Assembly (NCBI GenBank): GCA_031082005.1 | Contig: JAVHLR010000002.1 | Location: forward strand, 1 to 42,111 | Reading direction: 5' to 3' | DNA length: 42,111 nt | From: Patescibacteria group bacterium | GTDB lineage: Bacteria > Patescibacteriota > Patescibacteriia > 2-12-FULL-60-25 | Part shown: one piece after another, positions 12,301-25,327 of the stretch | Position numbering within the stretch: position 1 is the stretch's first letter | Layout: each line of letters starts with the position of its first letter | The notes under the pieces: model-generated | The model's database searches: none | What the model was told of the DNA's origin: nothing | The model's input: only the letters and a program-made list of their open reading frames with translations | Made by a program: the position numbers and the translations under genes

Positions 12301-13419
12301 ATGGATAGTCAGCTACCAAACAATTTAGCGCAAGGAACGGCGATATTGGGATACGGCGAAAAAAAACGCAGCTACGTGAAATACGTGGCTGCGTTTTTCG
12401 CCGCTATCGGTGCAGCGCTTTTGATGGCGATCATCTTTTGGGCGCTGCTTTCACCCGTAAGCGTTCCGACCGGGGTACTTGCGACAATCTCAATACCAGG
12501 AAAAATCCAGCTGCCTGATTACGCTCCAGAGGTTTGGCGAAAAGCGACACAGCCTGGTCTGCCGGTAATGCTTGGAGTGAGCCGAAATGGCGAAGGCTTG
12601 AGGTACTTCGCCGTCACTCTGCGCTGGGTAGATTCGGGAGACTCGAAAACTTTAAGTTCCGGAGCACTGAAAACTTTTTTTGAAAACGGCACCTCTGATT
12701 CGACGGAAGATTTCAGCGCTACGTCTTTTTTTTCGCAAGTCCTGCTCAAGACAAGAGGGAAGGACGCATACATGTCACTTTGGACAGGGGCAGCTACGAG
12801 TGAGAAAATTTCCGGGAGCATCAAGGGATCCAAATGGGAAACGGATTTTAAGTTGGGGGACGCTAATGACGCTCTCTCGATCGACAACGATAACTTCGTA
12901 AACCTGAAAGCGCTTCCCAAGGCGTGGGAGATGATCAGCCGGTCACTCGCGGAGCGCTTTTCGCTAGACCTGCAGGAGATGCCAAGCGCGGTCGGCTGGG
13001 AGAACATAGACGAGCAAGACTTCAAACTGAAATTCATCTTCAACGAACAGATGACCGACAGGACTCTGCACGCTCTTTATGCGGCAGCCGGCCAAAGCAG
13101 GACGGCGAGCTATCGGTTGGCAGACGGAAGCTTAGCTTCTGAATTACTTATACCAGACGCCACTGCGGATATAGAAAGAGTCGCTGCCATCGGTCTGCCG
13201 CTCGAGGTGACCCTAACCAGGTCCAATCTAGTCATGAATAAGTACCAACCAGCGACAAAAGGACCAATTTGCGGTGAGAGGCAGATCGCAGTCGTCGACA
13301 TAAGCACCATCCCGGGAATGGCGGCTGGCTCACCGAAAGCGGGCATTGAATCGAGCAAATTGATTTTTTCTGCTGATAAAGGCAATCTTACGATTTGTTA
13401 TCAAGTTATCAACAGGTAA
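12301..13419 (+). CDS. membrane-anchored protein of unknown function
   Basis: The 372-residue protein is not one I can place. Residues about 27-50 (VAAFFAAIGAALLMAIIFWALL) form a single transmembrane helix after a short, lysine-containing cytosolic N-terminus; the remaining 320 residues should lie outside the membrane. That part is beta-rich with no obvious catalytic motif and contains only two or three cysteines, near the C-terminus. It starts 9 bases after pnp and so is likely co-transcribed, but no functional link to RNA decay is apparent. GAAGG sits right at the ATG, an unusually short spacing. The 3' end of the reading frame contains two DnaA-box-like sequences (TTATCAAGT, TTATCAACA), which constrains its codons. 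Confidence 0.75.
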   Translation: MDSQLPNNLAQGTAILGYGEKKRSYVKYVAAFFAAIGAALLMAIIFWALLSPVSVPTGVLATISIPGKIQLPDYAPEVWRKATQPGLPVMLGVSRNGEGLRYFAVTLRWVDSGDSKTLSSGALKTFFENGTSDSTEDFSATSFFSQVLLKTRGKDAYMSLWTGAATSEKISGSIKGSKWETDFKLGDANDALSIDNDNFVNLKALPKAWEMISRSLAERFSLDLQEMPSAVGWENIDEQDFKLKFIFNEQMTDRTLHALYAAAGQSRTASYRLADGSLASELLIPDATADIERVAAIGLPLEVTLTRSNLVMNKYQPATKGPICGERQIAVVDISTIPGMAAGSPKAGIESSKLIFSADKGNLTICYQVINR

Positions 13420-13425
13420 TCAACA
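13398..13425 (+). promoter_or_regulatory. cluster of three DnaA-box-like sequences
   Basis: TTATCAAGT (13398-13406), TTATCAACA (13406-13414) and TAATCAACA (13417-13425) are in tandem. TTATCAACA is also found upstream of dnaA (22507-22515). DnaA binding is inferred only from similarity to TTATCCACA. Confidence 0.4.
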
Positions 13426-13486
13426 TTTCATTAAATCGAAAGCAAATTCAAAATCTCTGCACCTTATTTAGCTTATTTTAGGCCCG

Positions 13487-13515
13487 TTGATAGTTTGCAT
13501 AAAAAGGAATATTAT
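13487..13515 (+). promoter_or_regulatory. promoter of the large structured RNA
   Basis: TTGATA (13487-13492), 17-base spacer, TATTAT (13510-13515). Transcription should begin near 13522. Confidence 0.65.
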
Positions 13516-13521
13516 ATATTT

Positions 13522-14010
13522 GTACGGTCACCGCGACTGTATTATCCACAACCGTGTGGAAAAGCTCTTTCTCTGCAGAAATCGCGTAAATCGCGAAAAA
13601 CAATCTCAATGGAGCCTTCGGGCGACAACCTCAAGCACTTTTTGTCTGCAATAGACTGATTACCACGCCTGTTACTTGGTGATCGATCTCATGCCCTAAC
13701 TCGTTCCGCTCCCTAGGGAGCACCGATACCAAAAAACAAAAGTAAAATTCCTATACTTAGGCACCCTCACCAACCGAGCCTGCGGGCTCAACCGAGGTAA
13801 TGCCGGGATCGGGTCGAGGCAGCAGCACCTTTTCTGAGACCAGGACGCTTAAATGTGTTCGCAACGTCTGCGCTAAGGCGCAACCCAGAAACCAACGGGA
13901 AGACGTTCTCGAATCATACGCACACACCGCAAGGTGTACTGCCGCGCCCAGGTCTGAAACCGCGCGGCCACTTATTCAAACAAGGGCCCTCCGCGGTTTC
14001 TTCTTTTTTT
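13522..14010 (+). ncRNA. candidate large structured RNA of unknown class, about 490 nt
   Basis: The stretch has no convincing coding frame but has a promoter at its start, a strong terminator at its end and many stable hairpins between. They are GCC-TTCG-GGC (13614-13623), GATTACCA/TGGTGATC (13658-13684), GCTCCC/GGGAGC (13708-13721), GAGCC-TGCG-GGCTC (13776-13789), an AACGTC/GACGTT stem (13863-13868 with 13902-13907) enclosing TGCGC-TAAG-GCGCA, and ACACC-GCAA-GGTGT (13924-13937). UUCG and GNRA loops are hallmarks of stable RNAs. I looked for tmRNA (tRNA-like ends, tag frame), RNase P (GAGGAAAGTCC, ACAGAA) and SRP RNA signatures and did not find them. A perfect DnaA box TTATCCACA (13542-13550) forms part of one 5' hairpin. 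The exact 5' end is predicted, not seen. Confidence 0.55.
13956..14010 (+). terminator. strong terminator of the large RNA
   Basis: GAAACCGCG (13956-13964) pairs with CGCGGTTTC (13992-14000), with inner GGCC/GGCC, followed by TTCTTTTTTT. Confidence 0.9.
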
Positions 14011-14175
14011 ACAAAATTTCAGGTTGCTGCTAAGCGTGGGTAAGCGCGTGGTTTACTAGATTCAAGGATTTTTAATCTTTCTATCCGTGAACGCATAAAT
14101 CCAATGTTAACAAAAACGGTCTTGCCAGTAGTTCAAAATCCATGCAAACTGTAATTACACGTCAGATGTTTACGA

Positions 14176-14204
14176 TTGACGTAATTTTTTTACCAGCCTA
14201 TACT
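14176..14204 (+). promoter_or_regulatory. promoter of the dksA-like gene
   Basis: TTGACG (14176-14181), 17-base spacer, TATACT (14199-14204). The start near 14211 leaves only about 14 bases before the ATG at 14225. Confidence 0.7.
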
Positions 14205-14224
14205 TGGTTATCCTAAAAAAATAT

Positions 14225-14599
14225 ATGACCCCTGAAAAAATCGCTTATTTCAAGGATCGCTTGCTCCAAGAGTTGCAGCGCTTGAACCAACAGATCCAGG
14301 ACCTAGGAGAGGAAAACCCGAACCAGCCGGGACGTTTTAACGTACGCTACCCAGAATCAGGCAGTAATTCCGAAGACGATAACGCCGCGGAAATAACAGA
14401 ATACACTGACGAACAGTCGATCATGGCTCGTGCAGCAGACGAACTGAAAGACGTCGAAGATGCAATTAAGGCAGTAGAAAACGGCAACTACGGCGTCTGT
14501 AAGTATTGCAAATCGGAGATCGACGAGAAGAGACTTGAAGCAAGGCCCGCTTCTTCGAGCTGCATCAAGTGCAAGAAGTTGTTCACCCAGGAACTGTGA
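14225..14599 (+). CDS. DksA/TraR-type zinc-finger protein
   Basis: A 124-residue member of the DksA/TraR family, which binds RNA polymerase through its secondary channel and tunes transcription, often with ppGpp. The N-terminal two thirds form a helical hairpin (LLQELQRLNQQIQ... then DELKDVEDAIKAVENGNYGVC), and the four-cysteine zinc finger is complete: CKYC ... CIKC. The motif NYGVCKYCKSEIDEKRLEARP is the classic signature. The ATG at 14225 is chosen because an upstream in-frame TTG at 14204 lies in the -10 box. No Shine-Dalgarno is visible. lspA follows with a 4-base overlap. It is shorter than E. coli DksA (151), nearer to the shorter homologues. Confidence 0.92.
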   Translation: MTPEKIAYFKDRLLQELQRLNQQIQDLGEENPNQPGRFNVRYPESGSNSEDDNAAEITEYTDEQSIMARAADELKDVEDAIKAVENGNYGVCKYCKSEIDEKRLEARPASSSCIKCKKLFTQEL

Positions 14600-22278: not shown

Positions 22279-22428
22279 TTATCTAGCTTTCTTGACGACC
22301 AGACGCTTGCGTCCTGTAGCCCTCCGGCGGGATAAAACCTTGCGCCCATCGCTCGTTTTCATCCTGGAACGAAAACCGTGGACTTTCACATACCGGCGCT
22401 TTTTTGGTTGGTAAGTTCTCTTGGGCAT
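22279..22428 (-). CDS. rpmH: 50S ribosomal protein L34
   Basis: L34 is a tiny basic protein of the large ribosomal subunit. The 49-residue frame, read leftward, starts [19 protein letters not shown] and contains the family hallmarks RTYQPK, HGFRSRM and [16 protein letters not shown], as in every bacterial L34. Its divergent position from dnaA, followed by rnpA and yidD, is the standard origin arrangement. Length is slightly over the usual 44-46. It is preceded by its own promoter with TTGCCA/TAGTAT. Confidence 0.96.
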
Positions 22429-22452
22429 GTATTTAGCTTTAATTACCACCGA

Positions 22453-22481
22453 ATACTAGCATTTGTTTGGATTTTTGGCAA
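22453..22481 (-). promoter_or_regulatory. promoter of rpmH
   Basis: Minus-strand TTGCCA (22476-22481), 17-base spacer, TAGTAT (22453-22458). Confidence 0.5.
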
Positions 22482-22495
22482 GATGCGTATATACT

Positions 22496-22515
22496 TTATC
22501 CACTTTTTATCAACA
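22496..22515 (+). promoter_or_regulatory. two DnaA-box-like sites upstream of dnaA
   Basis: TTATCCACT (22496-22504) and TTATCAACA (22507-22515) lie in tandem between the rpmH and dnaA start regions, where DnaA boxes usually autoregulate dnaA. Confidence 0.65.
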
Positions 22516-22540
22516 GGTTTGACAATCAATCACCCGACTG

Positions 22541-22569
22541 TTGAGATGAAGCCAAGAAATTCCTTTAAT
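22541..22569 (+). promoter_or_regulatory. probable promoter of dnaA
   Basis: TTGAGA (22541-22546), 17-base spacer, TTTAAT (22564-22569), start expected about 6 bases before the ATG at 22582. An alternative is TTGACA (22519-22524) with TGAGAT (22542-22547). Confidence 0.4.
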
Positions 22570-22581
22570 ACGCGCGTTTTT

Positions 22582-23979
22582 ATGGACAATAATGAAATCT
22601 GGAGAGCAGCTTTAGGAGAACTGGAATTAACGCTGTCAAAAGCCAATTTCACCACCTGGTTCAAGAGTACTTTTATCGCTGCACTAGATAACAACAAGGT
22701 GGTCATCGCGGTTCCAAACACTTTCACTAAAGCCTGGCTGGAAAAAAAGTATCATGAATCCGTAGTACGCGCCCTGCGTAATGTTACCCAAACGAATATT
22801 AGAGATGTTTCATATCGCGTAGAGGTAAGAAACACGACAATCCTGCCGCAATTCGCGGATCAAACCGAAAGGTGCGAGGAAGCTCCATCCGTATTGACGC
22901 AAAAGGCAGAAACAACCCAATCTACCCAGGCCACATCAAACGAAAGCGGCTTAAACCCGCGTTACAGATTCAACTCTTTCGTGGTCGGCAAAGCCAATGA
23001 ACTTGCACATGCGGCAGCCATGGCCGTGGCAGCAAAACCCGGTGAAACCTATAATCCCTTATTCATCTATGGGGGTTCTGGATTGGGGAAAACACACCTA
23101 CTTCAAGCCATTGGACACCACGTCTCAAGCAGCAATCCTGACGCAAAAGTCCTCTATGCGACCTGTGAACGCTTTACGAACGAATTTATCCAAGCTGTGC
23201 GCGGGGGTCGCGGGAAGGACTTCAAAGACTCCTACCGAACAGTCGACCTCTTACTCATCGACGACATACAGTTCATGACAGGAAAAGAAGGGACCCAGGA
23301 AGAATTCTTCCATACCTTCAACACACTACATCAGAACAACAAGCAAATCGTGATAACCTCCGACCGCTCACCTAAAGACATCCAGGGGCTAGAGAGCAGG
23401 CTGTTAACCAGATTCGAATGGGGCATGATCACCGACGTATCAAGTCCGGACTTCGAAACGCGCGTCGCTATCCTTGAGGCTAAATCAAAGGAAAAAAACA
23501 TGGGTCTTTCTCCCGACATCCTGCGGTATGTCGCAGGCACAATTCAGGTGAACGTAAGGGAGTTGGAAGGCGCGCTCAATAAAATCGTGGCCTATCATCA
23601 ATTCAAGAATACTTCGCCATCACTTGAATCAGTGCAATCACTTCTCCAAAGCTTCGTCCCCAATGTGCCGAAACGCAATATCACTCCCAAACGACTATTG
23701 GAAATCGTGACGATGTATTTTGATGTGAGTATGGACGAGATCCTCGGAAAAAGCCGTGAACAAAGACTTGCTTTTCCGCGTCAGGTAGCCATGTTCTTAC
23801 TGCGTGAAGAGGGAAAGTGCTCATTTCCGGCCATTGGTGAACATCTGGGCGGCAGGGATCACACAACAGCCATGCACGCATGCAACAAGATCATCAACCA
23901 ACTTAAAAACGACGATCAACTAAAAAGAGATGTGTCTCTCATCAGGGAGAAGCTTTATGCGGGCAGCGGATCTGGGTAA
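22582..23979 (+). CDS. dnaA: chromosomal replication initiator protein DnaA
   Basis: DnaA binds origin boxes, unwinds oriC and loads helicase. The 465-residue form starting MDNNEIWRAALGELELTLSK matches the conserved N-terminus; the longer open frame back to 22378 would cover the rpmH region and is a shadow. Domain I is about 1-85 and domain II is a short Ser/Thr/Gln-rich linker. The AAA+ domain III has Walker A GGSGLGKT (about 164-171), Walker B LLLIDDIQF and the sensor/arginine-finger segment SRLLTRFEWG. Domain IV ends with the DNA-binding signature GRDHTTAMHACNKI. Length is normal. There is no Shine-Dalgarno. dnaN follows across a 217-base gap that looks like the origin. Confidence 0.98.
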   Translation: MDNNEIWRAALGELELTLSKANFTTWFKSTFIAALDNNKVVIAVPNTFTKAWLEKKYHESVVRALRNVTQTNIRDVSYRVEVRNTTILPQFADQTERCEEAPSVLTQKAETTQSTQATSNESGLNPRYRFNSFVVGKANELAHAAAMAVAAKPGETYNPLFIYGGSGLGKTHLLQAIGHHVSSSNPDAKVLYATCERFTNEFIQAVRGGRGKDFKDSYRTVDLLLIDDIQFMTGKEGTQEEFFHTFNTLHQNNKQIVITSDRSPKDIQGLESRLLTRFEWGMITDVSSPDFETRVAILEAKSKEKNMGLSPDILRYVAGTIQVNVRELEGALNKIVAYHQFKNTSPSLESVQSLLQSFVPNVPKRNITPKRLLEIVTMYFDVSMDEILGKSREQRLAFPRQVAMFLLREEGKCSFPAIGEHLGGRDHTTAMHACNKIINQLKNDDQLKRDVSLIREKLYAGSGSG

Positions 23980-24196: not shown

Positions 24197-25327
24197 ATGC
24201 ATTTCGTATGTACCCAAGAAAACCTGATCCAGGGGTTGAACATGGTGGGCCATGTAGCAGGAAAGAACGTCAACCTGCCCGTATTGGGTAATGTCTTATT
24301 GAAGACAGAGAACGGCGCGCTTAAGCTCTCGTCGACGAATCTGGAGATTGCTGTGAGCTGTCTGGTGCGGGGCAAGGTAGAGGTGGAGGGCGAATACAGC
24401 GTTCCCGCAAAGTTGTTTTTGGATTATGTCTCCTTGTTGCCTTCAGGTAAGGTCGAACTTGTGCTGATCGAGGATGGGTTGGAGGTAAAGTCCGGCGATC
24501 AGGAGACTGTGTTAAAAGGGATTTCGGCTGCGGAGTTTCCGTTGTTGCCGAAGTTGGCCAAAGATGGAGGTTATAGTTTTTCTGCGCTCGACCTGAAAAG
24601 AGCGTTGTCGCAAGTCGTCTTTGCAGTTTCGACTTCACAGTCACGTCCGGAGCTGATGGGGGTCGCGTGTTTTATGGATGGCGGGGATGCTTCTCCGGCA
24701 GCTGTGTTCGTGGCCACGGATTCGTATCGTCTCGCAGAACGTAAACAACCCTTTTCGGGTAATGGCAGCGGCTCGCGATATATCGTTCCTGCTAAGGCCT
24801 TCCTGGAGATGATGCGCATCTTGGGGGCGTATAAGGACGAGTTGAGCGCTCCAGAGAACGTGACGTTGAACTTCACGGAGAATCAGTTAGTGGCGACGCT
24901 GGGGAGCGTAGATTTGATTTCGCGCCTGATTGAAGGGTTTTTCCCTGACTACAAGCAGATAATCCCGCAACAGTTCAAAACCGAAGCTGTGTTGTCGCGT
25001 GCAGAGCTTCAGAAGGCGGTAAGGGCGGCGAGTTTGTTTTCCAAACAGGGTTTGTTTGATGTGCATGTTTCTTTCGATCCGGAAGCTTCAACCTGTACAA
25101 TCGAGTCTGCTGATCAGGGAACGGGAAAAACCAAGACAGTGCTGAAGGGTGAAGTGAAGGGTGTGGTGAACGAGGTGACGTTGAACTTTAGGTTCTTGGG
25201 CGACGGTCTGGCGGCAATGAGTGGAGATAAGGTCAGGATCAAGCAGATAGACTCTCTCAACCCAGTTTTGGTCACTCCAGAGGGAGATGATGGGTATAGA
25301 TATATTGTGATGCCTATTCGTCAGTAG
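24197..25327 (+). CDS. dnaN: DNA polymerase III beta subunit (sliding clamp)
   Basis: The clamp encircles DNA and tethers the replicative polymerase. The 376-residue protein is full length with three similar domains (about 1-120, 125-250, 252-376). Visible landmarks are LPVLGNVLLKTENGALKLSSTNLEIA in domain 1, VFVATDSYRLAERK in domain 2, and the C-terminal YRYIVMPIRQ, which corresponds to the usual M-P-x-R/M-x end. dnaA and the predicted origin lie upstream, a long bidirectional terminator downstream. No clear Shine-Dalgarno precedes the ATG. Confidence 0.97.
   Translation: MHFVCTQENLIQGLNMVGHVAGKNVNLPVLGNVLLKTENGALKLSSTNLEIAVSCLVRGKVEVEGEYSVPAKLFLDYVSLLPSGKVELVLIEDGLEVKSGDQETVLKGISAAEFPLLPKLAKDGGYSFSALDLKRALSQVVFAVSTSQSRPELMGVACFMDGGDASPAAVFVATDSYRLAERKQPFSGNGSGSRYIVPAKAFLEMMRILGAYKDELSAPENVTLNFTENQLVATLGSVDLISRLIEGFFPDYKQIIPQQFKTEAVLSRAELQKAVRAASLFSKQGLFDVHVSFDPEASTCTIESADQGTGKTKTVLKGEVKGVVNEVTLNFRFLGDGLAAMSGDKVRIKQIDSLNPVLVTPEGDDGYRYIVMPIRQ

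Follow-up and report, generated by a model that had tools for sequence, protein, structure and literature searches.

An uncatalogued structured RNA encoded beside a dksA-like gene in Patescibacteria

The locus and its predicted transcript

The window (the whole stretch of DNA that we analysed, which is the entire 42-kb contig C4 of a 1.31 Mb genome) carries on its forward strand, at 13522-14010, a stretch of 489 bases with the features of a structured noncoding RNA gene; the predicted transcript, of ~490 nt, starts at about 13522 and ends in a T run. This assignment draws on the fold of the stretch, on its homologues and their covariation, and on the lack of a conserved reading frame. Downstream of the RNA, and outside it, lies a dksA/traR zinc-finger gene (14204-14599, +; PF01258), which synteny marks as a conserved neighbour and which has a candidate promoter of its own, TTGACG-17-TATACT (14176-14204, +), found by promoter scan and separate from that of the RNA. 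The wider context, ~8.4 kb downstream of the RNA, includes dnaA (22378-23979, +) and dnaN (24197-25327, +), both assigned with Pfam.

In five relatives the RNA has a rapidly evolving 372-aa protein on one side and the dksA-like gene, followed by lspA, on the other; the RNA of the nearest relative shares 88% identity, the upstream protein only 52%. The window's copy of this 372-aa protein (12301-13419) is assigned to no Pfam family and diverges far more quickly than the genes around it: amino acid identity between the window and genome G003 is 52% for this protein, against 91% (pnp) and 89% (dksA).

The earlier note, made from the letters of this DNA, had proposed a promoter, tetraloop-capped hairpins and a terminator here, and all three stand. 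The sigma-70-type promoter TTGATA-17-TATTAT is present at 13487-13515 (+); with 3 promoter-like sites against 1.8 in shuffles it is unremarkable alone, but it is kept in homologous loci: a promoter scoring 10 or more is present in 65 of 88, whereas the reverse strand yields one in 3 of 88 and shuffles do so in 2.1% of cases. The hairpins with UUCG (~13616-13625) and GCAA (~13926-13938) loops are in the sequence, together with a UGCG loop (13776-13789), and the folding energy of the 489 bases is -162.9 kcal/mol, against -134.1 kcal/mol in dinucleotide shuffles (z -5.0). At the 3′ end a hairpin, GAAACCGCG...CGCGGTTTC, spans 13956-14000 and is followed by the T run, the two together (13956-14010, +) forming a predicted intrinsic terminator; a simple terminator scan did not list this hairpin, all 7 of whose counted pairs are doubly changed among homologues.

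The stretch matched none of the known families. At the gathering score, none of the 4,227 families of Rfam 15 matched in the window, in five relatives or in 20 loci of the phylum, where only tRNAs were found, and the cmscan check which the earlier note had proposed gave only noise in this region at E<=10. That note's reading of the RNA as neither tmRNA nor RNase P RNA is borne out. Both of these have a complex pseudoknotted fold, and both resemble the window RNA in size and in being the products of housekeeping genes; unlike it, both are encoded elsewhere in the same genome. The RNase P RNA model (RF00010) found nothing in 13300-14200 with the threshold relaxed to E<=10, and that RNA has its true copy at G000:C3:278034-278572, while tmRNA (RF00023) had neither a model nor an ARAGORN match in the window and has its true copy at G000:C3:494239-494636; the RNA at 13522-14010 is therefore neither. 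The RNase P RNA of this genus seems, in passing, to carry large insertions, being 539 bases long at the copy just given and 598 at G003:C1:1266348-1266945, compared with the 367 positions of the model.

In the open-licence PMC literature (subscription journals and preprints lie mostly outside that scope) we found no paper on such an RNA in Patescibacteria. PMC11665869 makes no mention of noncoding, small or structured RNA, DksA or intergenic regions; in PMC10633639 the only passages found concern neutral sites; and PMC8321541 has passages on organelles that have lost SRP RNA, with nothing found on a Patescibacteria RNA.

Homologues, covariation and the shared core

Relatives of the stretch were found at the DNA level in 6 of 57 genomes, its own included, and one scan of named genomes gave 4 loci. 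Within the GTDB family, a profile search with the cutoff E<0.001 recognised the RNA at 21 of 30 dksA loci; ten of the 21 had built the profile and eleven were new. The covariance model R1 then matched 15 of 379 genomes of the phylum at E<=0.01, with ~4 expected by chance, and its matches take in all 6 genomes of the same family in that sample, together with two other families of the class, in both of which the RNA is again upstream of dksA.

The gene dksA was present in 126 of 144 genomes of the class, and 90 dksA-upstream stretches (30 + 60) made up our class set. Unfiltered, R1 gave 10 matches at E<0.1 on the 60 stretches, all of them on the sense strand of dksA. A core, CUCUACUGUUC ... AAAACAAAAACAAAA ... 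GAAYGGUAGAG, was recognised by eye and script in 46 of the 90 and was not recognised by these means in the other 44; alignment A5 was made from 45 of the 46 loci (L161 was left out), and alignment A6 holds 43 of 45 prepared rows. The putative link between the RNA of the window's family and that of the class rests on the R1 matches, on synteny and on shared architecture.

At E<=0.05 a second model, R2, matched 62 of the 379 phylum genomes, where chance would give ~19; at E<0.001 it matched 31, where chance would give ~0.4, and 24 of these 31 lie outside the class, in 10 families. We read 23 of the 24 out-of-class loci: in 15 of them dksA follows immediately, in the same orientation, and in one further locus lspA and comM lie downstream. 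This synteny is independent support, because R2 held no neighbourhood information. A third model, R3, matched 7 of 39 genomes at E<0.01 (one of them, G077, from its training set) and 11 at E<=0.1. The covariance models thus detect the RNA in a minority of the sampled phylum genomes only; R2 and R3 both miss the window's own genome, and their detection rates are therefore lower bounds for a fast-changing RNA.

Covariation was seen at three levels: within the family, within the class and across classes. In the family alignment (22 sequences; helices P1, H1 and P3), 29 of 35 counted pairs show double changes, which answers the check on homologues that the earlier note had asked for, and 82.1% of cells are paired, compared with 70.0% in shuffles and at most 47% with the partner strand slid. 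Helix P1 is long-range: in the family UGC-NN-GACUCGACC pairs with GG-YYGGGUCGA-GCA over ~100 nt, and at its centre the pairs A-U, C-G and U.G are kept in 19, 22 and 22 of the 22 family sequences and in 42, 45 and 42 of the 45 class loci. In class alignment A5, 89.3% of P1 cells are paired compared with 76.8% when shuffled, a comparison in which the strands were hand-anchored, which favours paired columns. These results confirm that the stretch is a real folded RNA, previously uncatalogued.

In the window, all on the forward strand, the 5′ strand of P1, UGC-CCU-AACUCGUUCC, lies at 13692-13707 and covaries with its 3′ strand, GGGAUCGGGUCGAGGCA, at 13805-13821, where the ACU/GGU triple (A-U/C-G/U.G) is invariant or nearly so in both family and class. 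Just before P1 is hairpin H1 (13654-13688, with 13654-13664 pairing 13678-13688), a family-level element of 8 pairs, 6 of them double-changed, with 83% of cells paired. Between the strands of P1 there follow a hairpin in the position of P2, GCUCCCUAGGGAGC (13708-13721), without a pseudoknot loop in the window's family; an A-rich single strand, CCAAAAAACAAAAG (13729-13742), which the alignments mark as the counterpart of AAAACAAAAACAAAA in the class; and P3 (13760-13804), whose covarying helices, GGCA.CCUC ... GAGG.UGCC, enclose the hairpin GAGCC-UGCG-GGCUC.

Beyond these helices, P2 is the hairpin that follows the 5′ strand of P1, and its loop is complementary to bases lying ~10-25 nt after P1. 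The mean complementarity is 13.3, against 10.06 (sd 0.26) with permuted partners, and none of 300 permutations reached 13.3; the test counted 59 of 65 loci, two having been dropped for want of an A-rich match and four for want of the hairpin, and this pair is present in none of the search models. Examples are GCCGAC/GUCGGC, UCUAGUC/GACUAGA and UUUCGAC/GUCGAAA. Among seven later loci, L244, L245 and L246 have perfect partners of 6-7 bp and L247 one of 6 bp (4 of 7); in L243 inspection by eye shows a CCGAUCU/AGAUCGG pair, though the script picked another hairpin, and L248 and L252 have no partner. In most lineages the loop of P2, the first hairpin inside P1, accordingly forms a 6-7 bp pseudoknot with a strand 3′ of P1.

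A pseudoknot was also sought in the window's own family and rejected: for the H1 loop, the P2 region and the P3 loop nothing exceeded permutation, the observed mean being reached by 231, 190 and 232 of 300 permutations respectively. The window's lineage, which shows no sign of a pseudoknot, has presumably lost or replaced it.

The window RNA thus belongs, as its Uhrbacteria-type representative, to an uncatalogued RNA family (structured, ~300-500 nt) that occurs in many lineages of Patescibacteria. The earlier note had raised a new RNA family as a possibility, which is now supported; beyond what that note could see, the RNA is no local oddity, being spread over the phylum in a neighbourhood that is conserved and with DnaA boxes upstream. 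That note had also said beforehand that missing covariation, a conserved protein frame or a significant cmscan match would speak against it, and none of the three was found.

Candidate roles of the RNA

We consider it likely, overall, that this uncatalogued structured RNA of Patescibacteria, built around the P1 core, is the trans-acting RNA of a housekeeping ribonucleoprotein. In that core the long-range helix P1, with its invariant ACU/GGU and U.G wobble, encloses hairpin P2, the A-rich CAAAAACAAAA strand and hairpin P3; in most lineages the pairing of the P2 loop with the strand just 3′ of P1 holds the A-rich strand beside the pseudoknotted helix, while the window's family has P1, the A-rich strand and P3 with no pseudoknot sign. 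The A-rich strand is probably a docking or contact surface, and the RNA would be a stable one, acting in trans within the RNA-protein particle. Its function, that of a housekeeping RNA and perhaps a 6S-like one, is something that we infer only.

Our first candidate for the partner is the transcription machinery, with the RNA binding RNA polymerase and regulating transcription together with the neighbouring DksA-like protein, in a 6S-like role; we hold this with low confidence and regard it as doubtful. The 6S model (RF00013) matched nothing in the window and none of the 28 class genomes searched, compared with 5 of 14 controls; the RNA has a near-consensus promoter and keeps a conserved place adjoining a dksA/traR-family gene. 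Like 6S RNA it is a stand-alone bacterial RNA with a strong promoter, and a link to RNA polymerase through the dksA-like neighbour is conceivable. However, adjacency to dksA is weak evidence of function, and the fold is a different one. 6S RNA folds into one long hairpin whose central bubble resembles a promoter; the consensus here is instead P1 around internal hairpins and an A-rich strand, with a pseudoknot in most lineages, and a distant homologue, which folds with z -8.7, does so as several domains.

The region upstream of the RNA core suggests a different connection, with replication. We take TTATCCACA to be the DnaA box. A perfect copy (13542-13550) faces an inverse copy with one mismatch (13555-13563), so that the pair spans 13542-13563, and the box scan found a DnaA-box-like site, TTATCAACA, at 13406-13414 (+). 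Across 86 of the 88 loci, 80 perfect boxes lie before the RNA core, in upstream regions that reach 580 nt at most; they fall in 60 of the 86, with ~1 box expected, and the downstream regions of the same loci have none; the boxes peak 75-175 nt before the predicted RNA start. The RNA could therefore be an origin-associated transcript (a primer or activation RNA), or the locus could titrate DnaA, acting in either case on initiation, and it is in keeping with this that dnaA-dnaN lies so near in the window and ~15-17 kb downstream of the RNA in G472 and G049. We nevertheless find this unlikely, since 26 of the 86 upstream regions have no perfect box, and the sign change in GC skew lies away from the RNA, by ~50 kb in G238 (from 19 of 20 stretches, one that read N being left out), by ~26-40 kb in G083 and by over ~90 kb in G041, even though G041 has a box. 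In the sampled stretches of G472 and G049 there was no clear skew change. An oriC at the RNA locus, which the boxes had prompted us to consider, is thus unsupported, the sampled skew turning elsewhere. Because GC skew does not put the origin at the RNA, we interpret the boxes as regulating the RNA gene: DnaA would probably tune the synthesis of the housekeeping RNA through them. A tight cluster of DnaA-box-like sites in the window lies at the RNA, and dnaA-dnaN is 8.4 kb further on.

In most loci dksA follows directly after the RNA, in the same orientation, and the RNA ends at a terminator, an arrangement which would also suit a cis-regulatory leader, that is, a large attenuator or riboswitch whose terminator controls read-through into dksA-lspA. 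Were this so, the RNA should always lie upstream in the same transcript as dksA, and it does not: it is divergent from dksA in G015, ~2 kb upstream of it in G006, and beside lspA with dksA ~11 kb away in G036, and no dksA is near it in five out-of-class loci (L172, L174, L175, L185 and L191). The dksA gene of the window has, besides, its own promoter candidate. A leader is accordingly quite improbable. The RNA stays independent of dksA where gene order breaks, and would therefore act in trans; the exceptions in gene order and the separate promoter candidate together argue for an independent, trans-acting RNA.

The earlier note had seen no signatures of SRP RNA, and this holds: the SRP models (RF00169, RF01854) had no match in the window, at the locus or elsewhere. 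A diverged SRP RNA overlooked by the Rfam models has some attraction, as the small form was found in none of 13 relatives, nor in any of the 39 genomes sampled from the phylum, though in 11 of 14 controls, and the large form in none of the 13. The window RNA shares with bacterial SRP RNA the character of a housekeeping-type RNA, and the sampled phylum genomes have no model-detectable SRP RNA. In domain IV of SRP RNA, CAGG and AGCAGC face each other below an apical tetraloop, and we considered such a domain on account of CCGGG/CCAGG-10 nt-AGCAGC in the window's family (CCGGG-10 nt-AGCAGC-like letters in the window itself) and of the lack of SRP matches. We rejected it: the letters are half of P1, pairing with a strand ~100 nt upstream rather than with each other under a tetraloop, and the CAGG/AGCAGC motif is missing from the class and phylum consensus. 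An overlooked SRP RNA is therefore very improbable.

That the stretch is protein-coding, or a spacer with chance hairpins, we regard as practically negligible: frames of 77 and 62 aa do exist in it, but both meet stops in the closest relative (90% identity, with 9 single-base gaps over 485 aligned bases), as the earlier note's view that no frame is credible would predict, and neither reading accounts for the covariation and the pseudoknot.

For 6S and SRP RNA alike, the models match in the control genomes and in none of the Patescibacteria samples, so that these RNAs are either beyond the models or missing. The lack of a model match is not the absence of the RNA, and nothing links the window RNA directly to either job. 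Our RNA nevertheless bears on how Patescibacteria, a large and mostly uncultured radiation with small genomes, manage without model-detectable 6S and SRP RNAs.

OLE, GOLLD, ROOL and the raiA motif (ModT RNA) are known from other phyla, and are presumably among the families of Rfam 15. The window RNA is like them in size class and conserved structure, and unlike them in matching no Rfam family. They are reported to be conserved RNAs of large size and marked structure, and for some of them the function has yet to be found (PMC12286853, PMC11706538).

The covarying helices, the pseudoknot, the near-consensus promoter and the DnaA boxes make it likely that the RNA matters to the cell. Many tiny Patescibacteria (the candidate phyla radiation) have this RNA near the gene for the replication initiator, which points to an important role in the cell. 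It is possible, and we put this forward tentatively, that the RNA is ancestral to Patescibacteria and has been retained in their reduced genomes, forming a housekeeping ribonucleoprotein under DnaA control that does a job for which other bacteria use another RNA, be it 6S-like control of transcription or the work of some other particle; one of the largest bacterial radiations would then possess a core RNA machine of its own, which has escaped notice because no known family matches it. Recognition of the RNA gives a concrete target, with conserved parts, neighbours and testable base pairs.

Two minor observations concern the dksA-like genes. In some genomes of the class one or two in-frame stops lie inside the dksA match, namely in G465, G486, G437, G467, G036, G511, G432, G439, G475, G513 and others, which may be an artefact of the start region, a pseudogene or a change of code. 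Within the family, the DksA-like protein of L062 (940-1311, -) reads CKYTGKPID...TSVEAKK where others have CKYC...CI.CKK, and appears to have lost most of its zinc-finger cysteines.
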